NCBI RefSeq assembly: GCF_900182605.1
Contig: NZ_FXTB01000001.1
Coordinates: forward strand, 868,001-932,000
DNA: 64,000 nucleotides
Direction: 5' to 3'
DNA from: Saccharicrinis carchari
GTDB taxonomy: Bacteria; Bacteroidota; Bacteroidia; Bacteroidales; Marinilabiliaceae
Shown here: in pieces, positions 22,420 through 47,892 of the stretch
Layout of the letters: every line of letters starts with the position of its first letter
How positions within the stretch are numbered: position 1 is the stretch's first letter
Translations under genes and position numbers: made by a program
Notes under the pieces: generated by a model
Seen by the model: only the letters and a program-made list of their open reading frames with translations
What the model was told of the DNA's origin: nothing
Database searches by the model: none

Positions 22420-22451
22420 TTTGGTGATACTTAAACACAAGCTTATATTTG
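22420..22451 (+). promoter_or_regulatory. Bacteroidetes-type promoter of the lipid cluster
   Basis: TTTG at 22420-22423 and TATATTTG at 22444-22451 are separated by exactly 20 nt, matching the Bacteroidetes housekeeping sigma consensus (-33 TTTG, 19-21 nt, -7 TAnnTTTG). Initiation would be expected near 22457-22459, leaving a leader of about 40 nt to the ATG at 22498. This is the only complete promoter match I found in the window. Confidence 0.7.
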
Positions 22452-22497: not shown

Positions 22498-23124
22498 ATG
22501 AATAAAACTAAAATATTTTTATCACTTGTATTAGCGCTACTTTTTAATACGCTGGTAGCAGTTAAAGCATCCAATAAATCCGAAAACATTACGGAAAAAT
22601 CGATTAAATATAACATAAGTGCCCTTGGCATGAACCTGGGGCAGTTTACCGTTAAACAAAAAAGCAACAATGGCATCATAAGCATAGAAGGAATTACGGA
22701 TATTAAAGTAAAGTTATTGCTAACCTATCAGGTAAAATACATTCAGGAAACCACACATCAAAACGGACGGTTGAGGCAATCGCATTTACAAACAAAAAAA
22801 AATGGCGAAACCTATTCCGACACCTGGCTCATAGCTCAAAAAGATGATTATTTACTTATTAAAGACGGCGATTCGACTTTAATAAACGATGATATTACCT
22901 ATACCGGCAGCTTGCTTTATTTTAACGAACCCATCCATTCAAGCTATCTTTATAAAGAAAAAAGTGGAGAAAAAAGAAGAATCAAATCTACCGATGACCA
23001 CACCTACGTATTATTAAACGACAAAGGACAGGTAACACACGAGTATACTTATAAAAATGGTATATTGGCACAGGCCAAAATTAAATTCTCCATAGCGGAT
23101 ATCCGTTTAGATTTCATTCAATAA
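22498..23124 (+). CDS. secreted DUF6134-like protein (lipid cluster)
   Basis: A 208-residue protein with a cleavable signal (MNKTKIFLSLVLALLFNTLVAVKA, hydrophobic core residues 7-21). The mature part is beta-rich, with the pattern IKYNISALGMNLGQFTV and alternating charged strands resembling DUF6134/DUF3108-type periplasmic proteins, which may form a lipid- or ligand-binding barrel. Function is unknown for the family. It is the first gene after the promoter at 22420-22451 and is 12 bp from the TauE/SafE gene, so it is probably co-expressed with the whole cluster. A role in moving or sensing the cluster's product is inference. Confidence 0.7.
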   Translation: MNKTKIFLSLVLALLFNTLVAVKASNKSENITEKSIKYNISALGMNLGQFTVKQKSNNGIISIEGITDIKVKLLLTYQVKYIQETTHQNGRLRQSHLQTKKNGETYSDTWLIAQKDDYLLIKDGDSTLINDDITYTGSLLYFNEPIHSSYLYKEKSGEKRRIKSTDDHTYVLLNDKGQVTHEYTYKNGILAQAKIKFSIADIRLDFIQ

Positions 23125-23136
23125 AGCGAGCCGTAT

Positions 23137-23931
23137 ATGATATTTCACTCCCCGGTAGAACCTCTGTACTTATTATTGCCTTTAATTGGCTTAATAGTTG
23201 GTTTGTTTGGCACCGTGTTAGGAGGAGGCGGAGGCTTCTTCTTTTTGCCTGTATTAACGCTGATTTTTAATGTGCCGCCGCAAACTGCCGTTCTCACTTC
23301 GCTTGTTGCCGCTCTGCCCATTGGTATGGTAGGTATGTTAGGTCACCATAAAAAGGGGAATATAGATTTTAAGGTAGGATGGATATTTGCATTTTTTGGT
23401 GTTTTAGGCACCTTTTTAGGTGCTTATATTACCAGCCAAATTAATCCGGAGCAGCTTAAGGATTATTTTGGTTTTTACGCAATTATTTTGGCAATAAGTG
23501 TTATTTATGGTACACTCAAAAATAATATAATAAAAATAGAAAATATTAAATGGAATTTCAGACAGTACATTAGAAAAAGTAAAGCAGCATTTTTTGGGCT
23601 GGGTGGCGGTACAATCTCGGGAGCCTTTGGCACCAGTGGCACCGGCCCCGTTTTGGCAGGTTTGTTATCGATGCAAATTCCTTTAAAAATGGTGGTGGGT
23701 ACCTCCTTAATGGTTGTAACGGTAAATGCCATGTCGGCCATTACTGCCCATGCTTTAGTGGGGCAAATAGATTTAACCCTGATTGGATTTTTAACAGTCG
23801 GATCCGTCATTGGATCCATCATGGGCCCCAAAATAGTGTCAAAAGCCCAATTAGATAATAAGGAAAACAAAGCCCGTTACCTGTATGCCGTAGTGCTGAT
23901 TTTGATTGGCTTATTAATGATAATAAAGTAA
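23137..23931 (+). CDS. TauE/SafE family membrane transporter (lipid cluster)
   Basis: A 264-residue membrane protein with about eight hydrophobic segments in two repeats. Each half has the family's glycine-rich motif: VLGGGGGFFFLPVLTL in the first and GLGGGTISGAFG in the second, followed by helices with conserved Pro. TauE/SafE proteins are proposed exporters of sulfite or organosulfur anions (sulfoacetate, taurine-derived) or other small anions. The start at 23137 is 12 bp from the previous stop and the stop is 13 bp before the next gene, so it is operonic. Its presence in a lipid-synthesis neighbourhood is unexplained; it might supply or expel a small anionic precursor. Confidence 0.88.
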   Translation: MIFHSPVEPLYLLLPLIGLIVGLFGTVLGGGGGFFFLPVLTLIFNVPPQTAVLTSLVAALPIGMVGMLGHHKKGNIDFKVGWIFAFFGVLGTFLGAYITSQINPEQLKDYFGFYAIILAISVIYGTLKNNIIKIENIKWNFRQYIRKSKAAFFGLGGGTISGAFGTSGTGPVLAGLLSMQIPLKMVVGTSLMVVTVNAMSAITAHALVGQIDLTLIGFLTVGSVIGSIMGPKIVSKAQLDNKENKARYLYAVVLILIGLLMIIK

Positions 23932-23944
23932 AAATTACATAAGA

Positions 23945-24673
23945 ATGATAAAATTAATATACGGTATAATCATAGGCTATTTTGTTTTAGGCGGGATAGG
24001 CTTTTATTTTATAAACCGTAACAAAGAAAAACAGGTTGCCAAAAAAAGTTACACCAAGTTCGTTTCTTACTTTGTTATCATCCATATCTTATTTTTTAGC
24101 ATTGTAGTAAACCCCGTTTATTTTAAATATTTAAGCCTGATCATAATTACAGCGGGGTTTATCGAACTTTTTAGCTTATTTTATAAAAACAGGTATCAGA
24201 AACTGTTATTTTATTTAGTTTCAAATATCGTTTACATTATCCTATCTTTAGGCTTCTTTGTTTTCAGCGGATTGCCGAAAGAAATCATACTGTTCTCGTT
24301 TTTGGTGCTTTCAATTTTCGATAGCTTTAGCCAGATTACGGGCCAACTTTGGGGCAAAACCAAGCTATTCCCTTCCATTAGCCCGGCCAAAACATTGGGC
24401 GGAACGGTAGGAGGAGGCATGGTAGCCATAGCTAGTTCATTATTGTTGAACGATTTATACCAGGCCTCTGTTTTCAACACCATGAGCCTTGCACTCGGTA
24501 TAATTGTTTTTGCACAGGCCGGCGACTTATTAGCTTCTGTTTACAAGCGGAAGTTTAAAGTGAAGGATTATAACCAAATCATTCCGGGGCACGGTGGCTT
24601 TTTAGATCGTTTCGACAGTTTGATTGCTGGCGGCGCATGGGTAGCATTGGGAATTTACATACTTAACTTTTAA
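23945..24673 (+). CDS. CdsA-family phosphatidate cytidylyltransferase
   Basis: A 242-residue polytopic membrane enzyme. The full CTP-transferase signature is present near the C-terminus (residues 198-224): S-V-Y-K-R with KVKDYNQIIPGHGGFLDRFD, containing the metal- and CTP-binding Lys/Asp and the HGG-x-x-DR-x-D core. It also has the SPAKTLGG block (146-153). CdsA converts phosphatidate plus CTP to CDP-diacylglycerol. Bacteroidota usually carry a housekeeping cdsA elsewhere, so this may be a paralogue for a particular lipid alcohol (inference). It is followed 17 bp later by a lipid-kinase-like gene and shares an operon with a CDP-alcohol phosphotransferase. Confidence 0.92.
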   Translation: MIKLIYGIIIGYFVLGGIGFYFINRNKEKQVAKKSYTKFVSYFVIIHILFFSIVVNPVYFKYLSLIIITAGFIELFSLFYKNRYQKLLFYLVSNIVYIILSLGFFVFSGLPKEIILFSFLVLSIFDSFSQITGQLWGKTKLFPSISPAKTLGGTVGGGMVAIASSLLLNDLYQASVFNTMSLALGIIVFAQAGDLLASVYKRKFKVKDYNQIIPGHGGFLDRFDSLIAGGAWVALGIYILNF

Positions 24674-24690
24674 AACAGACACCTTTAATT

Positions 24691-25365
24691 ATGGTTAGTA
24701 TAATTGCATTATCGTTTTTTTATTTGGTAGGAATTGCGTTTTTACTAATTTTTAACGAGCTAAATTACAGAAGATTTAAAATAAAGGGGGAGATAACCCG
24801 CAAGTTTGCCCACTTTGCCTCCATCCTTGCCGTTATCCCCATGCCCTACATGTTTAACTCGCATTGGTATGTATTAATATTGGCCGCTGTGTTTTTTATT
24901 ATACTGTTAATAACACAACACAGTAAATATTTAAACTCCATACACGATATAAAGCGCAAGTCTATAGGAAGTTATTTGCTTCCCCTGGCTATTTACGCCA
25001 CTTTTTTAGCATCCTATTTATACGGTAATAAATTCTTTTTTATACTACCCATGTTAATATTGGCCATTTGTGATCCTATGGCGGCCATACTGGGTATGAA
25101 CGTAAAAAAATATAACGGTCGTATTGTGCTATTTGGGCATAAGTTCCAGAAAACATGGTTAGGATCAGGTGCATTTTTTGCCATGAGCTTGATTATTTCC
25201 CTTATAGCACTCTATTATTATCGCGATTTACTCGATTTAAAAACAGTATGGTTGTCCGTAGCTATAGCTACAGTGGGTAGCCTTGCTGAATTATTCAGTT
25301 GGCGCGGGTCGGATAATATTACCATACCCATCAGTATTTTGTTTATACTGGTAATAGGCTTGTAG
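24691..25365 (+). CDS. CTP-dependent diacylglycerol/polyprenol (dolichol, phytol) kinase-like protein
   Basis: A 224-residue membrane protein with about seven hydrophobic helices. EITRKFAHFAS near residue 34 and ICDPMAAILG (about 128-137) match the conserved loops of the SEC59/Dgk1/VTE5 family, which use CTP to phosphorylate dolichol, diacylglycerol or phytol. The family shares a fold with CdsA. Placement directly downstream of the CdsA-like gene suggests a relay: lipid alcohol to lipid phosphate, then to CDP-lipid. Which lipid is phosphorylated is unknown. The C-terminal helix ends with the stop at 25363-25365; a 139-bp gap follows. Confidence 0.85.
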   Translation: MVSIIALSFFYLVGIAFLLIFNELNYRRFKIKGEITRKFAHFASILAVIPMPYMFNSHWYVLILAAVFFIILLITQHSKYLNSIHDIKRKSIGSYLLPLAIYATFLASYLYGNKFFFILPMLILAICDPMAAILGMNVKKYNGRIVLFGHKFQKTWLGSGAFFAMSLIISLIALYYYRDLLDLKTVWLSVAIATVGSLAELFSWRGSDNITIPISILFILVIGL

Positions 25366-25451
25366 TTACTTAATTAAATTAACATATGAAACGCCCATTA
25401 TTTATGAGGCATACACTCAAAGAGATAATTGAAATCAGTTAAATGGCTGTC

Positions 25452-25467
25452 CCTGCCTTAAGGCAGG
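25452..25467. repeat. perfect 16-bp palindrome CCTGCCTTAAGGCAGG
   Basis: This palindrome lies in the 139-bp gap between the lipid kinase-like and SDR genes, 37 bp before the SDR ATG. Related short palindromes occur at 3872-3882 (CCTGC-G-GCAGG), 16352-16368 (GCCTGT/ACAGGC) and, with changes, at 36829-36848. It could be an RNA hairpin that moderates the level of the downstream genes or a mobile small repeat; there is no T-run. Confidence 0.5.
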
Positions 25468-25504
25468 TTTTGTTTCAAAATCTCTTATCTAATTTTATAC
25501 ACAG

Positions 25505-26653
25505 ATGAAGAAAATTATTATTAACGGAGCCAACGGCTATGTGGCTTCCAACTTCATAAATAGCTTACTTAACACTAATTACCAGGTAATAGCTTTGGTT
25601 AGAGGAAGTAAAAAACTATCTGCCAACGAAAGGATGTTTAAGGTACTTTCCGAAATTAACGATGCCGAATATGTACGTACCTGTCAACTCAAAGTGTATG
25701 CTTATTCGCTAACAGAAGAAAACTTTTCGATGGCGGAAGAGGACTTACAGGATATTTTTAGTGGCGAGTTTGATTATTATCATTTTGCCGCCAGCCTAAA
25801 GTACGACCGCAAATCGAAAAACGAAATATTTGGCACCAACATCGATGGGATAAAAAACTCCCTGGATGTGTATGCCCGTTATGCCAATTCAAAATCACGC
25901 TTGTTTTTTATTAGTACGGCCTACTCCTGCGGTCGTATGAGCGGGCTTTTCGAAGAAAAATTTTACGATAACGATAACATATCGGCCTTTAGGAATTATT
26001 ACGAACAATCTAAAAGATATGCCGAAAACGTAGTGAAAAACTATATAGAAGAGCATCAAATAAATGCACACATCATCCGCCTGTCGCAGGTTGTAGGCGA
26101 CAGTAAAACCGGAATTACAAAAACAGATTATGGGATTTTTGATTTTGCCAAACGGATGTTTAGCCTGGCACATCGTTATCCCAACCAAACCGTAAGGTTG
26201 AAGGTTGATCCCGAAGCCACACAAAATTTAATTCCTATCGATATTGTGGTTCATAATTTAATGCGTACTGTTGCAACCGAAAAGGTACCCACCATTATGA
26301 ATTTCACCGCAAAAAAATCCGTTAAAAACCAACATATCATTCGTGCTGTAACCCAATTGATGCCTATAAAAATTGTACCTGTCGAAAACCTTAAAAAAGA
26401 CGATATGAGTCCCCTGGAACGATTGGTTTCAGTGGGCATGTCGTTTACAGGTAACTATATCAATATAAACCTTCATTTCGATACAAAAAATACAGATAGT
26501 CTGCCACGGATAAACGGATATCAGAATTTAAACAATGAACACCAGGGCATAAGCGAAGAACAAAGCACATATAAAATGCTGGAATATTTTATTGGTACTT
26601 TGCCTGTACCCAAAGGCAGCAAAACAATATCAAAAGATGGGGCAACAGTGTAA
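25505..26653 (+). CDS. extended SDR / acyl-reductase-like (NAD_binding_4) protein
   Basis: A 382-residue cytoplasmic protein. The Rossmann motif ING-ANGYVASN (Gly8-xx-Gly11-xx-Ala14) binds NAD(P); the catalytic Tyr-xxx-Lys pair is Tyr166/Lys170 in YYEQSK. The pattern of STAYSCG and late residues around PIDIVVH resembles the NAD_binding_4 family, which includes fatty acyl-CoA and thioester reductases, as well as nucleotide-sugar SDRs. In this cluster a reductase acting on an acyl or polyol precursor is plausible. Substrate is not determined. About 100 C-terminal residues past the core show no motif I recognise. It starts 139 bp after the previous gene and ends 127 bp before the phosphotransferase. 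Confidence 0.8.
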   Translation: MKKIIINGANGYVASNFINSLLNTNYQVIALVRGSKKLSANERMFKVLSEINDAEYVRTCQLKVYAYSLTEENFSMAEEDLQDIFSGEFDYYHFAASLKYDRKSKNEIFGTNIDGIKNSLDVYARYANSKSRLFFISTAYSCGRMSGLFEEKFYDNDNISAFRNYYEQSKRYAENVVKNYIEEHQINAHIIRLSQVVGDSKTGITKTDYGIFDFAKRMFSLAHRYPNQTVRLKVDPEATQNLIPIDIVVHNLMRTVATEKVPTIMNFTAKKSVKNQHIIRAVTQLMPIKIVPVENLKKDDMSPLERLVSVGMSFTGNYININLHFDTKNTDSLPRINGYQNLNNEHQGISEEQSTYKMLEYFIGTLPVPKGSKTISKDGATV

Positions 26654-26780
26654 AACCAATACCTACTAAAGCCTAAAATAAATATCACCTGAACTTATTG
26701 CATAAACTGGATTCAGGTTCTATACAAGGCCGCATTTAACTGTATACTGATTCTTTTAATCTCAATACTATTTAATAATC

Positions 26781-27365
26781 ATGAAACAAATTATAATCAA
26801 AGGCGAAAACGTACTTAACGTACCTAATCTAATCAGCTTATACCGTTTATTGGTATTTCCACTCATCATGTATCTGGCTTTTGCCGGACAAGAAAAATGG
26901 TTTGTCATTTTGCTATGTATTAGTTTGGTCAGCGATGTACTCGATGGTAACATAGCCCGCTTATTTAAGCTGCAAACCAACTTTGGGGCTGCGCTCGACA
27001 ATCTGGCCGATATATGTACATATGCCGTAGCTTTGTTAGGCTTGTTCCTCTTTAAGTGGGATGTGATAGAACCACATGCATTGATTTTATATGTTTTTCT
27101 CACACTTTTTGTACTGAGTTACTTTGTATCTTTTTTTAGGTTCGGAAAAATCCCCGGACTACACCTATACTCGGCAGTGTCGGCCGGATATGTGCAGAGC
27201 ATCTTTTTCTTCGTTTTATTTGTATTTGGCTTTTTTCCATGGTTCTACTATCTGGCCATAGGCTGGGGTGTTGTGGCCTACATGGAAAAAATACTCGTTC
27301 TTTTTAAGCTCGACGATATTAAAATAGGAGTTAAAGGTTTGTATTGGTTAATGAAAAAGCAATAG
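26781..27365 (+). CDS. CDP-alcohol phosphatidyltransferase
   Basis: A 194-residue integral membrane enzyme with six hydrophobic helices. The complete family signature D-xx-DG-xx-AR-x8-G-xxx-D-xxx-D is at Asp52, Asp55, Gly56, Ala59, Arg60, Gly69, Asp73 and Asp77. The enzyme swaps CMP on a CDP-lipid for an alcohol (glycerol-3-phosphate, serine, inositol phosphate and so on). Which alcohol is used is not evident, and this length fits several subfamilies (PgsA, PssA, archaetidyl transferases). Operon partners (kinase, CdsA) would supply the CDP-lipid. The next gene begins 13 bp after the stop. Confidence 0.93.
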   Translation: MKQIIIKGENVLNVPNLISLYRLLVFPLIMYLAFAGQEKWFVILLCISLVSDVLDGNIARLFKLQTNFGAALDNLADICTYAVALLGLFLFKWDVIEPHALILYVFLTLFVLSYFVSFFRFGKIPGLHLYSAVSAGYVQSIFFFVLFVFGFFPWFYYLAIGWGVVAYMEKILVLFKLDDIKIGVKGLYWLMKKQ

Positions 27366-27378
27366 TACGTTAAGTGAA

Positions 27379-29835
27379 TTGTATGCTATGTTAAGATATA
27401 TTATTGTTTCCTTACTGATTTTATCTTGTTCAGGAATCTATTCACAAAAAATTTCAGGCTATGTGATGGATAAGGAGAACGGCGAAGGGGTACCTTTTGC
27501 CAATGTTTGGGTAAAAGGCACTATACAGGGTACACAAACCAATGTGGATGGTTATTTTGAATTAAACAACCCGCAAAGCGATACGCTTTGTGCTTCATCG
27601 GTAGGTTATATTAGGGAGCAGCACTTTATAAATAAAGATGCCAACCAAAAAATGAAGCTATACCTGAAAAAAGAAGTACAGTTACTAAAGGATATTACAA
27701 TAAATGCAAAGATGCCTATCACCAAGGTTATTTTTAAGCGGATACAGGAACATAAAAAAGAAAATAGCAAACAAATAAACAATGTGGGCAATTATAAATC
27801 GCTGCAAAACACCACCGTTTACCTTGCCTTAGACACCGCTTCGAGAGCCAGCCGCCTTTTTAAAAATGGCAATGATGTAGTGCTGAAAACCAACGACAAC
27901 GAACCGTTAAGCTTCTCGCCCATTTATTTATACGAAGAGGCCACCAGTGTTGATGGGTTTAAGGACAGTATTGTTTACAGTAAAAAAGACGGGATATTCC
28001 CCCGGATGAACCAAGCCATCGAAACCTATGTATTGCGCAACATTGTGGTAGATATGGATTTTTATAAGGAACAGATCATCATTATGGATCGCGGTTTTGT
28101 TTCGCCCATCAGCAGTTCGGCCATGAGTTATTACCACATTTATTTCAACGACAGCCTAAGGGTTGACGGTAAAAAACATTATTGTTTTTCTTTTGCTCCT
28201 AAAAACAGATATAACCCCCTGTTCTCGGGACGTTTTGCTGTTGAAGAGGGCAGCTATGCCCTTACCGAAATTCATGTCCATATTCCCAAAGAAGCCAACC
28301 TGAATTTTGTGAACGGTTTCAATGGCGCGGTCTCCTATAAAAAAATGCCCAACGGAAAATGGTTCTACGACCAACAAAAGGTGGATATCAACATGTCGCT
28401 CATCATTAACAAAGACAGCACTGTAACCTATGATTCGGAACGGGTAGAAAAGGTGGAGAGCGGCAACTGGCTTATCAGTAAATCAACTATATATTCAACT
28501 TCCCCCCTGCTGGAAAACATGACGGCCAGCAGCTGGAAATATCAGGAAGCTTTTGCCAACAACCGATTGGACGACGGCACCTTTAAAAGGTTGGATAATA
28601 TCAAAGAAAACAAATATGTTAAAGCCATTGATGCCATTGGTGGCTTGTCTTTATCGAGTTATCTGAATGTGGGTAAAATAGATATAGGCCCTGTTTTTGA
28701 TATTTACAGTACCAACAGCATCGAGGGTACTCGCTGGACTCTTCCGCTGCGTACAAGCCAAAAAATGTTCGAAAACTTTTATGTGGGCGGTTTTCTGGGT
28801 TACGGTACACAAAGCAAGGAGTTTAAATATGGGGCCAACGTGGCATACAGACCATTGGATACGGACAAGTTTATTTTAAGAGCCAGCTATTCCAACGATT
28901 ACCACCTGGTATCGATAAATAAGTACAATCGTTTTGTAAAAAACAACCCCAACACAAAGGGAACCAGCAACTTTATTGCGGCGGTAACCTCCAAAAGTAA
29001 AAACCCTTACCTGAAAGAAGAAACGAACGTGCAGATGCGCCTGGAATATAACGGCGTAAATGATTTCCATGCCGAAGTATCGCCCTATTATCAAAAAAAC
29101 ACGCAAACACCTGCGGTAAAATTCGTAAAAAACGGTACGGAATATAACGATTACGTCACCTATGGCGCTTTAGTAAATTTCAGGTACGCTTTTGCGCAGC
29201 CGTACGATCTGTATTTTTTCGATCGTGTTTACTATTCTACTCCCAAACCCATCCTTAACCTGGGCTTTGATTTTGGCGAAACCGTGTTGCCTAACCAAAA
29301 CATGGGCGAAGCCGGAATGTACGGCCAGGTACATGGCTCGGTGCAAGGGCGTATTGTTATGGGCAAGGTGTTTTTGAGTTACTTGCTCAATGCCGGATTT
29401 TTATGGGGCGATGCACCTTACGATTTATTGGATCAGCCGGCAGGTTCCATGTCCTTAGGATATGCTAAATACAACTTTAACCTGCTGCACCACGCTTCGT
29501 TTGCTCATAATCTATACAGCAACACCCATTTTCATTTTAATGGGGGCGGCATTATCTTAAATCATATTCCCCTCATTCAGAAGTTAAAATTGCGCGAAAT
29601 AGTCTCATTTAAAGGTCATTATGGAGGCTTAAACAGTTCGTACAATGGTGTTTTTGATTTGCCCGACTATTACAGCAACCATACAAACAAGCCTTATGCC
29701 GAGATAGGTTTTGGCCTGACCAATATTTTAAAGATATTGCGTGCTGAATATGTTATGCAATTAGGAAACACCTATCGCAATAAAAGTTACACCTATAATC
29801 ATGGCCTCTTTTTTAGAGCCGAAATGAGTTTTTAA
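27379..29835 (+). CDS. DUF5686-like outer-membrane protein with carboxypeptidase-regulatory-like domain
   Basis: An 818-residue secreted protein. A signal sequence (residues 1-22, ending near IYSQ) is followed by a carboxypeptidase-regulatory-like domain (about 24-100, ISGYVMDKENGEGVPFANV), a long central region (about 110-420) typical of DUF5686 proteins, and a C-terminal half with amphipathic strands ending in FRAEMSF, consistent with an outer-membrane beta-barrel. ILSCSG at 15-20 resembles a lipobox, but signal peptidase I cleavage after Gln fits better. Met4 is an alternative start. Function unknown; location in the outer membrane and 13-bp spacing from the CDP-alcohol enzyme suggest a role in placing or handling the lipid product (inference). 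Confidence 0.8.
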   Translation: MYAMLRYIIVSLLILSCSGIYSQKISGYVMDKENGEGVPFANVWVKGTIQGTQTNVDGYFELNNPQSDTLCASSVGYIREQHFINKDANQKMKLYLKKEVQLLKDITINAKMPITKVIFKRIQEHKKENSKQINNVGNYKSLQNTTVYLALDTASRASRLFKNGNDVVLKTNDNEPLSFSPIYLYEEATSVDGFKDSIVYSKKDGIFPRMNQAIETYVLRNIVVDMDFYKEQIIIMDRGFVSPISSSAMSYYHIYFNDSLRVDGKKHYCFSFAPKNRYNPLFSGRFAVEEGSYALTEIHVHIPKEANLNFVNGFNGAVSYKKMPNGKWFYDQQKVDINMSLIINKDSTVTYDSERVEKVESGNWLISKSTIYSTSPLLENMTASSWKYQEAFANNRLDDGTFKRLDNIKENKYVKAIDAIGGLSLSSYLNVGKIDIGPVFDIYSTNSIEGTRWTLPLRTSQKMFENFYVGGFLGYGTQSKEFKYGANVAYRPLDTDKFILRASYSNDYHLVSINKYNRFVKNNPNTKGTSNFIAAVTSKSKNPYLKEETNVQMRLEYNGVNDFHAEVSPYYQKNTQTPAVKFVKNGTEYNDYVTYGALVNFRYAFAQPYDLYFFDRVYYSTPKPILNLGFDFGETVLPNQNMGEAGMYGQVHGSVQGRIVMGKVFLSYLLNAGFLWGDAPYDLLDQPAGSMSLGYAKYNFNLLHHASFAHNLYSNTHFHFNGGGIILNHIPLIQKLKLREIVSFKGHYGGLNSSYNGVFDLPDYYSNHTNKPYAEIGFGLTNILKILRAEYVMQLGNTYRNKSYTYNHGLFFRAEMSF

Positions 29836-29836
29836 T

Positions 29837-30631
29837 ATGAAAGAGCTAAAAAATAAAGTAGTTTGGATAACTGGTGCCTCTTCAGGCATAGGCGAAGCCC
29901 TGGCTTATACCCTGGCCAGGGAGGGAGCCCATTTAATTTTAACGGCTCGTAGCACGGAGAAACTCCAAAAAGTTAAAAACAACTGCCTGCAACATACAAG
30001 TACGGTTATAGTGCAAGCAATGGATCTTTCAAAAACAGCGGGAATAGAAGACACGGTAAATTCGCTTATAAACCAAACAGGCCGTATTGATGTATTGATA
30101 AATAATGCAGGACGCAGTCAGCGCTCCCTGGCCAAAGATACACCCCTGACCAACGACCGAAGTATTATGGAGCTTAACTTTTTTAGCCCTGTAGCACTTA
30201 CCAAAGCGGTTTTGCCACACATGCTAAAAAACAAGGCCGGACATATTGTGATCGTAAGCAGCATCTCCGGAAAGTTTGGTTTTCCGTGGCGCACTGCCTA
30301 TGCTGCCTCCAAACATGCGGTGCAAGGTTTTTTTGAGTCGCTCAGGGCCGAGTTGCACGAGCAAAGTATCCAAGTAACCATTGTTTCACCGGGAAGAATA
30401 AAAACAGATATTTCGCTCCATGCCCTTATCGAGAATGGACAGTCCTACAATAAAATGGACGATGGTCAGGCCAATGGCATGCCGGCTAAGGAGTGTGCAA
30501 AAAAAATAGTAAAGGCTATAAAGAAAAATAAAAAAGATGTACTGATTGGTAAGCAAGAAGTATTAATGGTTTACATACGAAAATATTTACCTGCATTGTA
30601 TTATAAGATAGTCAGCAAAATAAAAAATTAA
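29837..30631 (+). CDS. short-chain dehydrogenase/reductase
   Basis: A 264-residue classical SDR. Cofactor motif TGASSGIG (residues 12-19), NNAG (89-92), catalytic Ser in IVSSISG (about 142) and Tyr155/Lys159 in AYAASKHAVQ are all intact, so it should be an active NAD(P)H-dependent oxidoreductase. Its start is only one base after the stop of the DUF5686-like gene and its stop is 11 bp before the VOC gene, giving strong translational coupling. Candidates include reduction of a keto group in a lipid base or alcohol. It has no transmembrane helix; the C-terminal MVYIRKYLPALYYKIV is hydrophobic and could associate with membrane. Confidence 0.9.
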   Translation: MKELKNKVVWITGASSGIGEALAYTLAREGAHLILTARSTEKLQKVKNNCLQHTSTVIVQAMDLSKTAGIEDTVNSLINQTGRIDVLINNAGRSQRSLAKDTPLTNDRSIMELNFFSPVALTKAVLPHMLKNKAGHIVIVSSISGKFGFPWRTAYAASKHAVQGFFESLRAELHEQSIQVTIVSPGRIKTDISLHALIENGQSYNKMDDGQANGMPAKECAKKIVKAIKKNKKDVLIGKQEVLMVYIRKYLPALYYKIVSKIKN

Positions 30632-30642
30632 ACACAAGCTTT

Positions 30643-31704
30643 ATGATGACGAAAAAGAATATATGTGGTATCCAACAGATAGGTGTTGGGGTTAAAAATG
30701 CGAAAGAAGCCTGGAAATGGTATCGCCAAGCTTTTGGTATGGACATCAACGTGTTTGAAGATACTGCCGTTGCAAAACTGATGTTGCCCTACACCAACGG
30801 AAAAGTGTACAAGCGCTACGCAGCCCTGGCAATGAACATGGAAGGTGGTGGAGGTTTTGAAATATGGCAACACAGCGATTTTGAACCACGTCCTCCGGTT
30901 TTTAAAGTACAGCTGGGCGATTGCGGCGTGTTTATTTGTAAAATGAAATGTCGTGATGTTAAAAAGGCCTTTGATAAACATCAGGAAATGGGCTTGGATA
31001 TATTGGGCTTAATTTCCAACGACCCACAAGGAAAACTTCATTATTATTTGAGAGATCCTTACAATAATATTTTTGAAATAGTTGAGGATAAAAATCATTA
31101 CAAAAAGCAAAAATCCGTAACCGGTGGTGTGGCCGGTGCTGTAATAGGGGTGTCCGACATTGAAGAAGCAAAAAAGGTGTATTGCGACATTCTGGAATAC
31201 AGCGAAGTAGTTTATGATAAATCAGGTAGCTTTGATGACCTGGCTCCCATACCCGGCGGAAAAGAAAAATACCGTAGGGTTCTGCTCAAACACCAACCAC
31301 GTACCGGCCCTTTTAGTAAATTATTAGGTCCTACACAAATAGAGCTTGTTCAGGCACTGGAACGCACGCCGCGCAAAATATACGAAAATCGCATTTGGGG
31401 CGAACTGGGATACATACACCTTTGCTTCGACATAATGGGTATGGACCTGTTGAAAGAAGAAGTGAAGCGCAAGGGATTCCCGTTTACCGTAGACAGCTCC
31501 GATGGCTTCGATATGGGTGTAGCAGCGGGTCAGTTCTCCTATATCTCGGATCCCGACGGCACCCCTATCGAGTTTGTGGAAACACATAAACTACCCATCA
31601 TCGAAAAGCTGGGCTGGTATATGAAATTAAAAGGACGTGACCCTAAAAAATCCCTCCCCAACTGGATGATCAATACCCTGAGCTTTAATAGGGTAAAAGA
31701 ATAA
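30643..31704 (+). CDS. double-VOC (glyoxalase/dioxygenase fold) protein
   Basis: A 353-residue protein of two vicinal-oxygen-chelate modules: residues about 5-150 (ICGIQQIGVGVKN, ending FEIVEDKNHY) and about 165-320 (AVIGVSDIEEAKKVYCD, YIHLCFD, IEFVETHK). VOC proteins use a bound metal for isomerisation, ring opening or oxidation. In the first module the usual opening His is Gln (IQQIG), while Glu residues in FEIWQ and FEIVE remain; in the second, His in IHLCF and Glu in IEFVE remain, so the second may be the metal site. Two ATGs (30643, 30646) are in tandem. It is the last gene of the cluster; its reaction is unknown. HPPD-like size, but HPPD signatures are absent. Confidence 0.82.
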   Translation: MMTKKNICGIQQIGVGVKNAKEAWKWYRQAFGMDINVFEDTAVAKLMLPYTNGKVYKRYAALAMNMEGGGGFEIWQHSDFEPRPPVFKVQLGDCGVFICKMKCRDVKKAFDKHQEMGLDILGLISNDPQGKLHYYLRDPYNNIFEIVEDKNHYKKQKSVTGGVAGAVIGVSDIEEAKKVYCDILEYSEVVYDKSGSFDDLAPIPGGKEKYRRVLLKHQPRTGPFSKLLGPTQIELVQALERTPRKIYENRIWGELGYIHLCFDIMGMDLLKEEVKRKGFPFTVDSSDGFDMGVAAGQFSYISDPDGTPIEFVETHKLPIIEKLGWYMKLKGRDPKKSLPNWMINTLSFNRVKE

Positions 31705-34907: not shown

Positions 34908-36785
34908 TTACAATTTTATTTCCTCACCAAAAGGAAATGCCAACTCAAAAATATGACCTTCCATAAGCATTACCATTAGATTGCCCTCCCGATTAAGCAT
35001 TAATTTATTTACGGAGGAGTTGCCCAGTTTATAACGGTAGATCAATTGACCCCCATCCGTATTTATGGCAAACACCTCACCATTTTTAGTACCTCCGTAG
35101 AGTACGCCATTCTGCTCAATCATGGGACATGGGTTATGCTCATAGCCAAAACCGCAATCCAAAGCCCATAGTTCACCTTTTTCCGGGATATCGGTGGGGT
35201 AAGCCACCACGGTATCGTTCATTAGCTTGGCAAACATATATTCTTTATCGGCCGACATGCCCATGGATTCGCGCACTTGATGCTCATTGGTGCGGTACAA
35301 CTGCTTGCCGGTTTTCAGATCGAGAACGGTAAAATACCGGTCCGGCGCCACCAAAAACACTTTACCCTTAGCCACCGCCGGCACAACATTACCGGGTGAA
35401 TAAAGGATAGCACCGTGTCCGTTGTTCCATTTCCAGTTCAGCTTTCCCGTGGTTTTGTCTACACAATACAAATGACGATCCCAGGCTCCAAATATTACCT
35501 CTTTATAGGTAACGCAAGGTTTTACCTGCACAAAACCCTCCACATCATTGAACTGCCAAACCAACGTGCCGTTTGATGCATTGATACTGGCCATGCCGCC
35601 TTTGCCAAGAGATATGAAAATTTGATCGCCATCCACCACCCCTTCACCAAAAATGGGATGAGCAAATTCTGTTTCCCATACGGGCATACCGTCGGCCACG
35701 TTAAATGCCCGCACTTTACCTTGTGAGGTTCCAACTATGAGCATATTTTTGTAAAACACCGGCGTACCGTATTGCGGGGTACCCAAATGGTGTTCCCAAA
35801 GCATTTGCTTATCGGTTTTGTTGATGCAGCGCAAATAGCCATCAGAGCTTAGCCAGGCCAACATGCCCGAAGGATGCATATCAAAACCACCCAAAACAGA
35901 AGCACTATCGGTATAGTCCCATTTTACCGCTACCCTTTCAAATTGTTTGTTGATATCGTAATTGGGTAGTTCCGATATGGACAAACCCTCAATTTGCTTT
36001 GATTCATGGATGTTCCAGGCAAACATCTGTTCCGGCGTTTGTCCCAACTTTTTCTCACTTACCCACACCGAATCGCCTTTAAGCTCTACGAGGTTATAGC
36101 CCTGGTCTGTTTTGTCGCGACTAAGCAGCGCACGGCCCATAATTCCGGTTATGCCGTTAAAATTCATCATTTGCAGTTTATGGCCATGCCCACAGAGGGC
36201 CATTTTAACATTTTGTTGTTTCAATGTTTCTGTTATTTCGGGCCAGTTGTCCAGTCCATCCGCCAAGGGATAGTGGGCCATAGCAATAATGTGTTTCGAT
36301 TTATCGCCTGAGGACAGGGTCTTCTGTAACCAGGCCATATCTTCTTGCTTTACATGGCCGTCGCCCATTTTCATATAGGGGCCGGTATTGAATCCCACAA
36401 AACGATAGGTATCCTGATTAAAATCGAATCGATCGTCGCCGAATACCTTTTTATAGGTAGCACCTCCGGTTTCAGACCAATTGGTTTCGTGATTACCTGG
36501 TAATATATAATAGGGTTTGTTCAGGGAATCCAGGATGGCTTTTACCGCATTGAGCTCGGCATCGGAACCCATATTGGACAAATCGCCGGTGATGACCACA
36601 AAATTGGCATCACTGCGGTTTATTTCGCCTACTGCCCGGGCAAATACCATTTCGTTCTCGTTACCCGGAACAACATGAATGTCGGTAAGAAAAGCAAACT
36701 TTACCGAATCGGAGGATTGGCACGACCATAGCAATACGGATAAAAGCAGAAGAAGTATGGCTTTGGGATAGAAATGAACTTTCAT
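34908..36785 (-). CDS. metallophosphoesterase lipoprotein fused to PQQ-type beta-propeller
   Basis: Start at 36785 gives 625 residues; MKVHFYPK leads into a lipoprotein signal with lipobox LLWSC (Cys22), while the upstream in-frame start at 36821 adds 12 residues. Residues about 30-250 are a calcineurin-like phosphoesterase with all metal motifs: TDIH (Asp35, His37), GDLS (Asp68), GNHE (Asn98, His99), AHYP (His171) and GHGH (200-202). Residues about 280-620 carry PQQ/pyrrolo-quinoline-type propeller blades with recurring LVW.., GKLNWKW and GGQLIYRYK sequences. Substrate may be a phosphodiester or phosphomonoester at the cell surface. It is the last of the minus-strand run and separated from the T9SS gene by a terminator. 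Confidence 0.9.
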   Translation of the reverse strand: MKVHFYPKAILLLLLSVLLWSCQSSDSVKFAFLTDIHVVPGNENEMVFARAVGEINRSDANFVVITGDLSNMGSDAELNAVKAILDSLNKPYYILPGNHETNWSETGGATYKKVFGDDRFDFNQDTYRFVGFNTGPYMKMGDGHVKQEDMAWLQKTLSSGDKSKHIIAMAHYPLADGLDNWPEITETLKQQNVKMALCGHGHKLQMMNFNGITGIMGRALLSRDKTDQGYNLVELKGDSVWVSEKKLGQTPEQMFAWNIHESKQIEGLSISELPNYDINKQFERVAVKWDYTDSASVLGGFDMHPSGMLAWLSSDGYLRCINKTDKQMLWEHHLGTPQYGTPVFYKNMLIVGTSQGKVRAFNVADGMPVWETEFAHPIFGEGVVDGDQIFISLGKGGMASINASNGTLVWQFNDVEGFVQVKPCVTYKEVIFGAWDRHLYCVDKTTGKLNWKWNNGHGAILYSPGNVVPAVAKGKVFLVAPDRYFTVLDLKTGKQLYRTNEHQVRESMGMSADKEYMFAKLMNDTVVAYPTDIPEKGELWALDCGFGYEHNPCPMIEQNGVLYGGTKNGEVFAINTDGGQLIYRYKLGNSSVNKLMLNREGNLMVMLMEGHIFELAFPFGEEIKL

Positions 36786-36806
36786 AATTTTAAAATTAGT
36801 ATCGGG

Positions 36807-36903
36807 TATCAAGAATATCAAGACATAACCTGTCCCGCCTTAGCAGGAAGTATCAAGTATCAAGATAAAAGTATCAACACAACCTGTTCTGCCATAGCGG
36901 AAG
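36807..36903. repeat. TATCAAG heptamer cluster and degenerate CCTG repeats
   Basis: TATCAAG occurs at 36807-36813, 36816-36822, 36851-36857 and 36858-36864, with a variant TATCAAC at 36872-36878. Two longer related units alternate with them: AACCTGTCCCGCCTTAGCAGG near 36827-36848 and AACCTGTTCTGCCATAGCGG near 36881-36900. The block lies directly upstream of the metallophosphoesterase start, in the region that would be its leader. No palindromic spacing typical of CRISPR is present. Confidence 0.6.
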
Positions 36904-38478: not shown

Positions 38479-40986
38479 TTATTTTACTTGAATTTTAGCG
38501 TAGCTTCGTCCACTTCTGGTGTAAACCTCCACCAAATATACACCTGCAGGCAAACGCTCCACATTCAGCGTAGCTTTGTCCGAGCCCATATGCTCCATCA
38601 TCATCAATTGCCCGGAGATAGAATGGATACGCACTGTTTTTATGGGTTCATCCGCATGTATATTGAGTATATTTTGTACCGGGTTGGGGAAAAGTTTAAT
38701 CTCTGCATCACCATTTAACTGTGGAACGGAAGTACCGTTATCGGGTGCAAGGAATCTAAACTGATCGAAATATAAAGTACCTTTTTGCGCACCTCCCGTT
38801 ACATATCGGAAATGAAAGCCATCCAAACGAAAATCGGTACCATCCAGCACGCCGTTTCCATTTACCCAGGCATACACCGGATCGTTACTCAAATCCCAGG
38901 AAATCAATTTCCAACCCATCCAATCTATGGAATACCAGGGACTGGCCTCATACTTTTGGTCGCCATCGCGAGCCATAAAGCGGAACTCGGTATTGGACCC
39001 ATCGCCAAAAACATATACCTGCAATAAATCTTCGATATTGTATCTATTTGTATTTTGTGCAGCATCGGGGTGCAGATAGAGCCGTATGTAGGGTGCACCG
39101 ACATCCATATCCCAACTATAGTTGAAACGCATACTTCCCTGGCTACCCTCCGAAAGGTTGGCCACGGAAGCATCATAGCTGCGATCGGTTTCTTCGGTTA
39201 TGATACCAGCGGTAGAACCGGACTGTTGGGGTTGCCACCAGCCAGAGATAGTGCCATCAAACGGATCGATAAGGTTGATGCTACGTGGAGCAATGCTAGG
39301 CAGCGAAAAACTATAGCTGAATGCTTCCGTTGTATTGCCGTAAAAATCGGCAAGCCCAGCGGCCACATCAACTTGATAAGTGGCTTCCTGGTTTAAATCG
39401 ATGGCAGGGAAAAAGTGGATTACACTCTGCCCGTTCACCACTTTATGCGTTACCTGACCCGTAACCATGTCCTCCGAAGGCATCAGTTTTAGGCTGACGG
39501 CATCGGCACCCACGGACGCGTCGTTAAGTTCTTCGTCATAAACCAAACGCAGGATGGGTCGCAATTCCGTTATGGCCGCATCTGTTGCAGGCCAGGAATC
39601 CATCAGCACAGGGGCATCGGTATCTTCGGCAGAAGTGGTGAATACCAATTGGTAATTACCACCCGCTATCCCATCTGCATCCCCATCGAGGAACTGATCA
39701 GTTAAAGTATTTTTTGCAATGCTTCCGTCTATCGTGAGTGTATATTGGGTAACAAATTCCAATCCGCTCATACTCACCTCAAGGGTAAAATCGTTCTGCC
39801 AATTATAAGTGAGCCCTACCAGTGCATCGCTGAGCGTAATGGCCGACTCCACGGAAGTTTTATCCATCTGCCGGCTAAAGGTAAACTGCAATTTGGTACC
39901 GGGTTTAAGCATCCCTAACTCGTTAGAAGGCTCCACCCCGGATACCAAAGGTGGAATAGTGCTTGTTAATTGAACATCGAGAAAACTCAGATTTTCGTGA
40001 GTACGTCCATTCGGGTTGGAATCCACATGAAGCATCATACTTTTGGTTTCGTGATTATCAGCGGTAAAAACCACCTCAACATCTGCTCCGGGCGTTAAGC
40101 CTTCTATGAAGTAAAAACCGTTTCGGAGTTCCTCAGGGTCGTTAGAGTACTGGTTAAACAAGGATTCGTAGGTGTCAGTAGTATATTGTTTGTCGGCAAT
40201 GCTTACCGTAACTCCATTGATAGGCAGGCCACTGTCTGCATCCGTAATAATTCCGGTGGCAACGCCTATGGCAGGCCTATCGATGCCGCCCCACTCCAGG
40301 ATGGAACGGAATGCAGACAAAGCTTCCAGTTTCTTCCATTCGGCATTGAGGTTTTTTTGTTGCTGTCCGGGATTGGTGTGAAAACCCGCCTCACTTAACA
40401 AAGATGCCATATTGGTGCGTCTGTTCACGGCAAGGTAAGGAAATTGATTGTCGTGGTGATATTCACCTCTCAGGTAAAAATTCCTGTCGGCCCAGTTGCC
40501 CCGGGTGTCGATTCGCATAACACCCGAGAGATCTGCATCAAGGATATCGCCCAGCGCCTTGCCCCCGTTGGGCTCCTTTTCAACGGTTACCCCATTGTTG
40601 GTCCAGCCCCCATGCAACATTAAAGTACTGTTAACCGAAGGCGATCCGGCATCGCTGTGTATAGAGTAATAAAAGTCGGCGCCCAATGTGTTGGCCAAAT
40701 CAGTCCGGGCCGCCAATGTAATTTCATCCTGATCGCTTAGCCGGGATAAAAATACTTGTGAGATATCGGTTTGTTGCTCTAACATATCCCGTAAGGCCCA
40801 AGCCACGCGCAGCACTTTTTCCGCTTCGGAGTAATTGTACAATCCCATATTGCCGGTTTTATCATGACCGGGATCGATAAAAAGTGACCAGTCGCTCAAC
40901 CCAATAATGGGTGCTTCCTGCGCTTTTAAATTAAAAGAACAGAGTGCTATAGTTATAAAAAAAAGTGATGGTATAACTTGTTTCAT
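38479..40986 (-). CDS. N-acetylmuramoyl-L-alanine amidase (Amidase_3) with Ig-like domains and T9SS tail
   Basis: Start at 40986 (835 residues) opens into a signal peptide, MKQVIPSLFFITIALCSFNLKA in sense; the longer frame to 41049 adds 21 residues before it. Residues about 33-210 form an Amidase_3 domain: zinc ligands His41 (DPGHD), Glu54 (YSEAEK) and His110 (SIHSDAG), and catalytic Glu199 in LLSEAGFHTNP. These enzymes cut the bond between MurNAc and the stem peptide of peptidoglycan. It is followed by a carboxypeptidase-regulatory-like domain, a Big_5-type region (PLVSGVEPSNELG onward), a galactose-binding-like block and a T9SS sorting tail (LFPNPVQNILNIHADE). Surface or secreted action on foreign cell wall is therefore likely rather than self-remodelling (inference). 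Confidence 0.9.
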   Translation of the reverse strand: MKQVIPSLFFITIALCSFNLKAQEAPIIGLSDWSLFIDPGHDKTGNMGLYNYSEAEKVLRVAWALRDMLEQQTDISQVFLSRLSDQDEITLAARTDLANTLGADFYYSIHSDAGSPSVNSTLMLHGGWTNNGVTVEKEPNGGKALGDILDADLSGVMRIDTRGNWADRNFYLRGEYHHDNQFPYLAVNRRTNMASLLSEAGFHTNPGQQQKNLNAEWKKLEALSAFRSILEWGGIDRPAIGVATGIITDADSGLPINGVTVSIADKQYTTDTYESLFNQYSNDPEELRNGFYFIEGLTPGADVEVVFTADNHETKSMMLHVDSNPNGRTHENLSFLDVQLTSTIPPLVSGVEPSNELGMLKPGTKLQFTFSRQMDKTSVESAITLSDALVGLTYNWQNDFTLEVSMSGLEFVTQYTLTIDGSIAKNTLTDQFLDGDADGIAGGNYQLVFTTSAEDTDAPVLMDSWPATDAAITELRPILRLVYDEELNDASVGADAVSLKLMPSEDMVTGQVTHKVVNGQSVIHFFPAIDLNQEATYQVDVAAGLADFYGNTTEAFSYSFSLPSIAPRSINLIDPFDGTISGWWQPQQSGSTAGIITEETDRSYDASVANLSEGSQGSMRFNYSWDMDVGAPYIRLYLHPDAAQNTNRYNIEDLLQVYVFGDGSNTEFRFMARDGDQKYEASPWYSIDWMGWKLISWDLSNDPVYAWVNGNGVLDGTDFRLDGFHFRYVTGGAQKGTLYFDQFRFLAPDNGTSVPQLNGDAEIKLFPNPVQNILNIHADEPIKTVRIHSISGQLMMMEHMGSDKATLNVERLPAGVYLVEVYTRSGRSYAKIQVK

Positions 40987-41127
40987 TTTTAATATCTTAT
41001 TTGTATGCACCAACTTACGAACGCTTTGTTCAGGTCCGGCCAGGGGCACAGATTAATTATTTGTGTGTTTCGCTCAAGAGTCCGGGCTACGTTTCAACTA
41101 TTAGCAGCCAAGCGTCACATCCTACCT

Positions 41128-42075
41128 CTACTTCAAACGGGCTTTATAAATAGCTCCATCGAGTGAGTTCTCAAATAATAGATATTTTCCGTCGCTGGAT
41201 ATATCCGGGTTCATGGCTACCATATCTTCTTTATCAAGCAGGGGCATATATTCGCCCGTTTGCACGTTAACTGTGTATAGCTTGCCGGAGGTTATTCTGG
41301 ATCCATCGTCATCCACCATAGTAACCACTATATATATTCCATCAGGAGTCCAGCTAGCCTGCTCGCCCTTACCCAGTTTTTTAAGGTTTTGACCACTTAC
41401 ATCGGCCACGTACAATCCCAGACCACTCACTTGAAACACCACTTTGTTACCAGCCGGAGATATGGCACTATTGAAGACATAACGGCCTTTAAATTCGGGA
41501 AATTTAACCTCCACAGGCACCTTAGATGATGCCAGCACTGGCATAAGGGCACCACTGAATAAAATAGCTTCCTTTTGTGGTGTACCAGTATTTTTTAGCG
41601 CTGGTATACCCGATGATTTTTTTTCCATGTTTTTACCCAGCATCATGGCCACAAGGCCATCGCCATTGCTAAACACAGGTAAACCTTTTAAATTACGCGA
41701 CTTTTCTAATATAAGGTGTTCCGTACCCACACGTACATCATAAAGCTTTACGTTGTGATACTTTCGAAAACCCTGTGAAAAAACAGAGCGAGCCAGGATA
41801 AACTTACTATCGAGTGACCAGGAGAAACCAAAGCCGGCGCCCGGGTCGGAAGTAAGCTTAGTCAGATTTTTTCCATCAGCGTCAACCACCCATATTCCAT
41901 TGTGCTTATCACCCGAAAAAGCAATCATTTGGCCATCCGGCGACCAAACGGCATTCATGTATGATACTTCATCAGAAAAAAGAATTTTCACGGGCTCGTC
42001 CACAATACGTGGTTGCCCAAAGGCGGCGGATACAATGAAGCTAAGCGTTAAAAGTAAAAGGTAATTTTTCTTCAT
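41128..42075 (-). CDS. TolB-like PD40 beta-propeller protein
   Basis: A 315-residue secreted protein with a signal peptide (MKKNYLLLLTLSFIVSAAFG) and about six PD40/TolB-type repeats (AVWSPDGQMIAFSG, FSWSLDSKFILA, SPAGNKVVFQV, SWTPDGIYIVVT, NPDISSDGKYLLFE). Such propellers bind proteins or ligands and are found in Pal/Tol partners and surface enzymes. It has no T9SS tail and no lipobox. It lies 141 bp upstream of the amidase gene and 298 bp downstream of the GHL10 gene, suggesting a separate promoter; CAAATATA (42129-42136) is a -7-like sequence on the minus strand without a matching -33. Confidence 0.82.
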   Translation of the reverse strand: MKKNYLLLLTLSFIVSAAFGQPRIVDEPVKILFSDEVSYMNAVWSPDGQMIAFSGDKHNGIWVVDADGKNLTKLTSDPGAGFGFSWSLDSKFILARSVFSQGFRKYHNVKLYDVRVGTEHLILEKSRNLKGLPVFSNGDGLVAMMLGKNMEKKSSGIPALKNTGTPQKEAILFSGALMPVLASSKVPVEVKFPEFKGRYVFNSAISPAGNKVVFQVSGLGLYVADVSGQNLKKLGKGEQASWTPDGIYIVVTMVDDDGSRITSGKLYTVNVQTGEYMPLLDKEDMVAMNPDISSDGKYLLFENSLDGAIYKARLK

Positions 42076-42373
42076 TGGAATCGTATTTAAATGAGTAAAG
42101 ATTTATAAATTTTCCAATAGTTGTCATACAAATATAATAAAGTAATTATACAATCTCCAGACTTTCTTTACAATTTTTTACACATAATTTAAAAAGAATA
42201 ATTCTTTGAATTATTGATACTTACACAAACTAATATTATGGTATAGTCCAAATTATTCAAAAACTTATCCATATTCATAGAAAAGCTACAAAGTAAATGT
42301 ATGATAAGATATAAGCTACAGCATACTAAACATAAACACTCATTTTCAACAATATGCTAAAGAAACACTTGTA
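42076..42373. other. 298-bp AT-rich spacer
   Basis: No gene and no terminator hairpin that I can see between the GHL10 stop and the PD40 start. AT content is high, as for a Bacteroidota promoter region; the tentative -7 box is described with the PD40 gene. Confidence 0.5.
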
Positions 42374-45169: not shown

Positions 45170-45211
45170 TTTCAAAAGTGTTATTGTTAGTATTAATTAA
45201 TATTGTTCTTC

Positions 45212-47665: not shown

Positions 47666-47720
47666 GGTGAGATTTTAAGATTTGAGGTTTTTAGCTAAGA
47701 GACCAATAGAGAAGGGATAT

Positions 47721-47800: not shown

Positions 47801-47892
47801 ACCCAATGTTTAAATAGGCGGGAAGCTATTTTAATCACTCGGAGGAAGGGATATTTTATTTTTCCCTCCCCCAAATTAAAAATTGCTATTGC

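Follow-up and report, generated by a model that had tools for sequence, protein, structure and literature searches.

A cluster of nine genes on the forward strand of Saccharicrinis carchari (contig NZ_FXTB01000001.1, assembly GCF_900182605.1) occupies positions 22498-31704 of the window, the whole 64,000-nucleotide stretch of DNA that was analysed. We consider the chances about even that this cluster encodes an accessory pathway, probably laterally spread, which makes a second, non-housekeeping class of phospholipid and transports it to the outer membrane. The narrower proposal, that genes 2-7 form an undescribed outer-membrane phospholipid route combining a free lipid alcohol, two steps that use cytidine triphosphate (CTP), a cytidine diphosphate (CDP)-alcohol transferase, dedicated transport and lateral spread, is held with less confidence, somewhat below even. 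In the proposed pathway, gene 4 would use CTP to convert a long-chain lipid alcohol to a lipid phosphate, gene 3 would use a second CTP to convert the lipid phosphate to a CDP-lipid, and gene 6 would exchange the CMP of the CDP-lipid for a polar headgroup to give the phospholipid. Gene 5 may supply or alter the alcohol, most likely through reduction of an acyl thioester, which would yield an aldehyde or alcohol, and gene 8 (a ketoreductase) and gene 9 (a glyoxalase-I-like metalloenzyme) could adjust a keto or hydroxy group of the backbone or headgroup. Gene 2 could carry a small anion, either a precursor or a by-product, across the inner membrane, and an MMPL exporter and a LolA-like carrier (DUF6134 in S. 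carchari) would, with a DUF5686 protein, carry the product outward. Each reaction, the substrate, the direction of transport and the location are what we infer from the sequences. The sequence-only reading of this DNA had recognized no named pathway with this gene set, and likewise no paper on the nine-gene set was found in the open-licence literature, in which nothing decisive was found on the polar lipids of carriers.

The cluster is accessory and not housekeeping, because a separate cdsA and a separate pssA-like gene exist elsewhere in the genome. Accessory status is a direct observation, as are the gene content, the conservation and the catalytic motifs described below. The other cdsA, full-length and on another contig, scores 190 bits versus 121.5 for the cluster copy, and the pssA-like gene scores 100.3 bits with TIGR00473, just under the cut-off of 107. 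The sequence-only reading had regarded the cluster as more than housekeeping, provided that its cdsA and CDP-alcohol genes were not the only ones in the genome; the two separate genes bear this out, and housekeeping phospholipid synthesis was ruled out by them. The distribution of these genes was followed in a family sample of 60 genomes, S. carchari included, in which a carrier is a genome with gene 4. Gene 4 was found in 17 of the 60, and in four of nine genomes in a genus sample, S. carchari being counted in both. All 17 carriers have a second CTP_transf_1 gene (117-147 bits) at the cluster, and a second full-length cdsA was found in one of the 43 non-carriers. An extra CDP-alcohol gene is located at the cluster, beside housekeeping copies, in 16 of the 17 carriers; in the seventeenth (G039) the contig stops before gene 6. 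In another genome (G013) the cluster is split across two contigs, the second of which begins with genes 6-7-8-9. Among the non-carriers, 34 have one CDP-alcohol gene, seven have two or three and two have none. The single non-carrier with another second cdsA, G027, has it adjoining a divergent CDP-alcohol gene (contig C9, 61551-62890).

Conservation of the cluster was examined in 25 loci. A scan of genome contigs with gene 4 gave 29 loci, 15 holding close relatives and 14 distant ones (27-42% identity). The 25 loci comprise those 15 and 10 more from the family; six of the 15 are on contigs of the other 16 family carriers, and the 10 are from the remaining ones. Loci cut at contig ends (L025, L148 and L150 among them) count as misses, and including the second contig of G013 would raise the counts for genes 6-9 by one each. 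Order and strand were identical wherever the genes occurred across the 25 loci, and the same arrangement was seen in Marinilabiliaceae, Prolixibacteraceae, a Salinimicrobium and Saprospiraceae. The order is thus kept beyond close relatives, a point on which the sequence-only reading had let its proposal depend. The core proteins are closest to those of Saccharicrinis strains, and the named strains that carry the cluster are Saccharicrinis aurantiacus, Mangrovibacterium marinum, Natronoflexus pectinivorans and Alkalitalea saponilacus. Outside such relatives, few close copies were found. In a phylum sample of 395 genomes, the gene 6 profile at E 1e-40 identified S. carchari alone, and the gene 4 profile at E 1e-12 identified 69 genomes, all but S. 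carchari at 131 bits or less. In a 29-row tree built from the concatenated genes 3, 4 and 6, two copies from Saprospirales/Saprospiraceae metagenome-assembled genomes (MAGs) nest with Natronoflexus and Alkalitalea with support of 100/97, and the Salinimicrobium copy is placed among Prolixibacteraceae and Marinilabiliaceae copies in a group of 12 rows (94/92), with no finer placement. The Saprospiraceae copies carry genes 3-8 and the Salinimicrobium copy carries genes 2-6 and 8-9. Lateral transfer is likely, and the nesting of the Saprospiraceae copies is consistent with transfer of linked genes; these are MAG copies, for which a binning error is possible.

The core of the proposed pathway consists of genes 3, 4 and 6. 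Gene 3 (23945..24673; 242 amino acids, aa) encodes a second CdsA-type cytidylyltransferase (PF01148, CTP_transf_1, 129 bits), is present in all 25 loci and probably functions in CDP-lipid synthesis; the CdsA signature columns GHGG and DRFDS are invariant in 17 of 17 sequences. Gene 4 (24691..25365; 224 aa) encodes a putative membrane kinase related to CTP-dependent phytol/dolichol kinases. Its own match to CTP_transf_1 is weak (16.2 bits, under the cut-off of 24), and its orthologues exceed that cut-off in 12 of the 17 carrier genomes, although one of the 12 does so only with neighbours in frame and two of the matches cross a stop codon. Residues D128, K154, G158, E200, D208, N209 and P213 are invariant in 15 sequences of gene 4, which is present in 25 of 25 loci, the loci having been found by this gene. 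Gene 6 (26781..27365; 194 aa) encodes a CDP-alcohol phosphotransferase (PF01066, CDP-OH_P_transf, 75 bits) that presumably attaches the headgroup, and the motif DxxDGxxAR-x8-GxxxDxxxD is kept in all 30 homologues. It is present in 23 of the 25 loci; both misses are at contig ends, and one of the copies was located on another contig. The three genes occur together in 23 loci, and both exceptions end at contig ends.

Diverged copies of gene 6 were sought in an order-level sample with the gene 6 profile at E 1e-12, and seven of 149 genomes matched. Two are S. carchari and G006, and the remaining five hold seven diverged copies. The gene order is 6-3-4 in L101 and L103 and 6-2-3-4 in L105. In L102 and L104, which are second copies in the genomes of L103 and L101, respectively, gene 2 adjoins gene 6, and L100 (at a contig end) and L106 have gene 6 without genes 2, 3 and 4 as neighbours. 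The three diverged core loci (L101, L103 and L105), from two other families, are without genes 5 and 7-9. Because the diverged loci keep genes 3-4-6, the kinase, cytidylyltransferase and transferase appear to be the minimal unit, often with TauE. This recurrence of the core without most of the other genes fits the earlier suggestion that the cluster could phosphorylate, activate and couple a lipid alcohol, with the reactions themselves predicted from sequence similarity.

Relatives of gene 4 were also observed in other contexts. A gene-4-like kinase is located in another recurring cluster (L151-L155, in G123, G217, G415, G075 and G337), which was counted in favour of the proposed pathway. All five of these loci contain homologues of DUF3419 (which we take to be BtaA-like), of a phosphoenolpyruvate-synthase-like protein and of UbiA, four of the five contain HMG-CoA reductase, and L153 contains an NAD_binding_4 reductase. 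The distant relatives in L037-L043 are longer (up to 546 aa), and by eye their second membrane half resembles DUF92 (VTE6-like).

Gene 5 (25505..26653; 382 aa) encodes an extended short-chain dehydrogenase/reductase (SDR), possibly an acyl-thioester reductase (PF07993, NAD_binding_4, 114 bits), and is present in 24 of the 25 loci. Residues Y166 and K170 and the glycine-rich start are invariant. The protein scores 78.7 bits with the Thioester-redct model TIGR01746, under the cut-off of 213. In a Foldseek search with its AlphaFold2 model (pLDDT 80, pTM 0.84), the best matches by E-value were the thioester-reductase domains 4w4t, 4u7w and 8v1x (E 2e-16, template modelling (TM) score ~0.70, 16-18% identity), and sugar epimerases were next in the list (TM ~0.6 by query length). 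Thioester reductase is the likelier reading of gene 5, not the sole one.

The genes presumed to act in transport vary more between loci. Gene 2 (23137..23931; 264 aa), a TauE/SafE-family transporter (PF01925, 149 bits), is present in 21 of the 25 loci and neighbours the CDP-alcohol gene in the diverged L102, L104 and L105; in L034 the cluster is without TauE and a Na/Pi cotransporter gene lies 5' of it. Gene 7 (27379..29835; 818 aa) encodes a presumed outer-membrane protein with DUF5686 and CarbopepD_reg_2 (91 and 64 bits) and is present in 19 loci. It was called from a TTG codon, and translation more probably starts at the in-frame ATG at 27388. In L031, which is without gene 7, a gene for an Omp85-superfamily protein lies directly after gene 6, and in L033 the gene after gene 6 encodes a 659-aa protein with no Pfam match. 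Gene 1 (22498..23124; 208 aa; PF19630, 83 bits) encodes the DUF6134 protein. The slot upstream of the cluster holds DUF6134 in four of the 25 loci, an MMPL and LolA-like pair directly 5' of the cluster in 12, neither in nine and both in none, where "neither" means no BLAST match to two reference pairs and the upstream sequence is short in some such loci. Three of the 12 pairs (L029, L108 and L109) were checked with Pfam; MMPL was over the cut-off in all three and LolA_like in two, L109 being below. The L108 protein, the sole MMPL scanned with the HAE3 and HpnN models, matched both below the cut-off. The upstream pairs and the Omp85-type gene of L031 thus agree with the export step that the sequence-only reading had suggested, the reaction itself remaining putative.

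Gene 8 (29837..30631; 264 aa), a classical SDR (adh_short, 193 bits), is present in 17 of the 25 loci. It exceeds the cut-off of PRK06181 (260 bits versus 215), and its catalytic tetrad N114-S142-Y155-K159 is kept in 28 of 28 rows. Gene 9 (30643..31704; 353 aa; Glyoxalase and Glyoxalase_4, 45 and 34 bits) encodes a double-VOC protein, is present in 15 loci and has homologues in 119 of 295 class genomes. The metal ligand set of glyoxalase I is Q/H-E-H-E, with Q and H alternating at the first position. In gene 9, E73, H259 and E310 are found in 36 of 36 rows and position 12 is Q in 34 and H in two, so that a glyoxalase-I-type metal site (Q/H12, E73, H259, E310) is predicted; E234, E313 and K102 are as invariant as these putative ligands. 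Residues 10-55 resemble the start of a methylmalonyl-epimerase model and residues 253-315 the end of glyoxalase models, both below cut-off, which agrees with a site formed by the first and fourth modules. No named glyoxalase or epimerase cut-off is reached by gene 9, the best score being 29.6 bits versus 165 for GloA. In a sample of 20 loci with gene 9 homologues (L080-L099) from 19 genomes, a gene 8 homologue was adjacent or one gene away in 10, and an acyltransferase gene was nearby in six (five by clustering, L098 by Pfam). Two of the five clustered acyltransferases, when scanned, matched a model for acylglycerol-phosphate acyltransferase with scores below its cut-off. Besides the SDR, only the acyltransferase recurs in more than two of the 20 loci, and no function emerged from these neighbours.

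Several results weigh against the proposed pathway. First, the phosphorylation of a lipid alcohol by gene 4 with CTP is its weakest step. The gene 4 profile had no significant match to the gene 3 profile (hhalign 2.6%), so that a close relationship between the two was rejected, and a PDB sequence search with gene 4 found no relative at E 1. Because of these two results, the kinase role is suggested by weak homology. Secondly, gene 6 is under every NCBIfam cut-off for named headgroup enzymes (bits/cut-off: ClsA 53/240, PgsA 45/109, PssA 33/107 and PIPS 33/170). These scores also bear on an alternative in which the cluster supplies an ordinary anionic glycerophospholipid (phosphatidylglycerol or cardiolipin) that is otherwise missing in the host. 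Gene 4 would then convert diacylglycerol to phosphatidic acid, gene 3 would make CDP-diacylglycerol and gene 6 would be a divergent PgsA or a eukaryote-type cardiolipin synthase. ClsA is the best NCBIfam match of gene 6, ahead of PgsA, and its best PDB match by sequence is 7drj, a PgsA (27 bits). There is also no other PgsA in the genome, where PF01066 finds the pssA-like gene and gene 6 only, and some genomes that have the core lack gene 5. Several named carriers presumably come from saline or soda settings, which was counted for this alternative as well. However, the ClsA and PgsA matches are far under their cut-offs, the housekeeping CdsA that is already there would make a second CdsA and a kinase superfluous, and genes 5, 7, 8 and 9 and the MMPL/LolA-like pair would be unexplained. 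We regard the glycerophospholipid alternative as quite unlikely.

Third, the evidence for gene 5 as a thioester reductase is not uniform. By target length, sugar epimerases reach a TM of up to 0.75 versus 0.70 for the thioester-reductase domains, and the nearest PDB entries by sequence (10 matches, best E 6e-7) are reductases that act on ketones or aldehydes, of the alcohol-dehydrogenase, Gre2 and dihydroflavonol-reductase types. In addition, G043 (Geofilum locus L032) has no close gene 5 homologue, its best distant match being 83 bits, and G738, G842 and G732 have none at E 1e-10; thus, the alcohol in these four genomes would come from elsewhere. In a search of nine genomes for gene 5, S. carchari and G022 have a close copy, and three non-carriers of the genus are also without one.

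An alkyl (ether or fatty-alcohol) phospholipid would be a specific form of the proposed pathway, and its likelihood lies within that of the pathway as a whole. Gene 5 would provide a fatty alcohol, gene 8 would act like an acyl/alkyl-dihydroxyacetone-phosphate (DHAP) reductase and the core would add the headgroup. Gene 8 probably resembles the human reductases DHRS7/DHRS7B, and this was counted for the alkyl form. These enzymes act on acyl/alkyl-glycerone phosphate, according to excerpts of one source (PMC13200781). The lead of thioester-reductase domains among the fold matches of gene 5 and the presence of an acyltransferase gene close to gene 9 homologues in six of 20 loci point the same way, while the core loci in genomes without gene 5 and the ketone/aldehyde reductases nearest to gene 5 by sequence point the other. 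The genome of S. carchari also has no clear alkyl-DHAP synthase, and ether lipids made by such a synthase were set aside for this reason; its two FAD-oxidase_C proteins have frames of ~950-980 aa, and the one that was scanned bears an Fe-S domain. An alkyl product is rather doubtful.

Fourth, the placing of DUF6134 as a substitute for the MMPL and LolA-like pair is suggested by its position. The DUF6134 and LolA-like profiles aligned only across the signal peptide (hhalign), which ruled out DUF6134 as a LolA homologue. Lastly, genes 8-9 are found in many genomes that have no core, and the structure model of gene 9 (pLDDT 49) is too poor for a check of the site. The earlier suggestion that the nine genes could act together is weakened by this wider occurrence of genes 8-9 and by the presence of DUF6134 in only four of the 25 loci.

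Gene 8 also suggested a ceramide- or capnine-based lipid, in which it would be a 3-ketosphinganine/3-ketocapnine reductase and the core would make CDP-ceramide. Gene 8 scores 141.5 bits with the KdsR model, but the cut-off is 400 bits. In L097 (8181-11279), an enzyme of the oxoamine-synthase family is located side by side with homologues of genes 8 and 9, but this enzyme is below every cut-off. Serine palmitoyltransferase is over the cut-off in only four of the 60 family genomes (two of 17 carriers and two of 43 others), and the best match in S. carchari is 355.7 bits versus a cut-off of 640; a sphingolipid pathway was rejected on these grounds. A second oxoamine-synthase relative of 420 aa, taken as CapB-like, was missing from the matches at E 1e-90 in five carriers (G023, G032, G033, G039 and G045) and present in those of many non-carriers. 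Sphingolipid and sulfonolipid versions of the pathway are disfavoured, and the ceramide or capnine alternative seems highly improbable.

The layout of the cluster was examined for transcription signals. The sequence-only reading had described nine genes of named families behind one consensus promoter, with most gaps of 1-17 bp. All nine ORFs were found, and eight of the nine proteins exceed a family cut-off in Pfam, the exception being gene 4. A Bacteroidota-type promoter match, TTG-N20-TATATTTG, is located at 22421..22451 on the + strand, 46 bp 5' of gene 1. The pattern TTG-N18-21-TANNTTTG was scanned in the 200 bp 5' of each of the nine starts, where this was the sole match, and in the whole window, which holds seven matches on the + strand and four on the - strand, with ~2.7 per strand expected under a first-order model. 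Six of the eight intergenic gaps are 1-17 bp, but those between genes 4 and 5 (139 bp) and genes 5 and 6 (127 bp) are longer. Because of these two gaps and a candidate terminator-like hairpin in the first (25452-25467, + strand), the cluster may form more than one transcription unit. Terminator-like hairpins were not in excess over shuffles in the scan (eight found versus 9.5 expected). The G+C content of the cluster (35-42%), compared with ~40-43% just before it, means that composition alone is no mark of foreign origin. Nothing in the window matched Rfam at the gathering threshold.

We judge bacterial membrane lipids with gene-level assignment and complete synthesis-to-outer-membrane routes both to be rare, and the operon is a compact, testable set in named strains. 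The cluster also gives context for the SDR-VOC pair, whose VOC partner has the wide class distribution noted above, and for DUF6134 and DUF5686, neither of which was named in any paper found in the open-licence literature. Elsewhere in the window, a metallophosphatase domain is joined to a PQQ/BamB-like propeller in one protein (34908-36821). A run of presumably secreted proteins (38479-49563) includes an amidase with Big_5 and a Por sorting tail, a GHL10 hydrolase, a NAGPA phosphodiester glycosidase with a sorting tail and a PKD protein.

The cluster can be compared with five known systems. First, it shares with CDP-diacylglycerol synthesis (CdsA and PssA/PgsA) a cytidylyltransferase and a CDP-alcohol transferase, both of which keep their catalytic motifs. 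However, the two are second copies that are dedicated to the cluster and lie next to a kinase-like gene, reductases and export genes, and gene 6 is under every named cut-off. Secondly, the phytol/dolichol kinase family comprises VTE5, SEC59 and DGK1. Orthologues of gene 4 in 12 of 17 carriers exceed the CTP_transf_1 cut-off, as would be expected of this family, with gene 4 itself under it. However, gene 4 encodes a short bacterial protein that stands alone, shares its operon with CdsA and a CDP-alcohol transferase and has no PDB relative by sequence. Third, the export of aryl polyenes and hopanoids uses MMPL (and LolA-like) proteins, as may the 12 of 25 relatives with the pair 5' of the cluster, whereas the L108 MMPL is under the HAE3/HpnN cut-offs and S. 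carchari has DUF6134 in this position. Fourth, the sulfonolipid pathway, as far as it is set out in excerpts of two sources (PMC11211663, PMC12927429), involves a cysteate synthase and a fatty acyltransferase, which the nine genes here are without, but it similarly gives a Bacteroidota outer-membrane lipid class by way of an SDR step. Lastly, the BT_1522-BT_1526 cluster contains an inositol-phosphate synthase and a phosphatase, which none of the nine genes here resembles, and no lipid kinase or CdsA of its own is named among its five genes in the excerpted parts of its description (PMC9246714). Like the present cluster, however, it includes a CDP-alcohol phosphatidyltransferase and, according to the same excerpts, gives Bacteroidetes an extra phospholipid, in that case an inositol lipid (PMC9246714).

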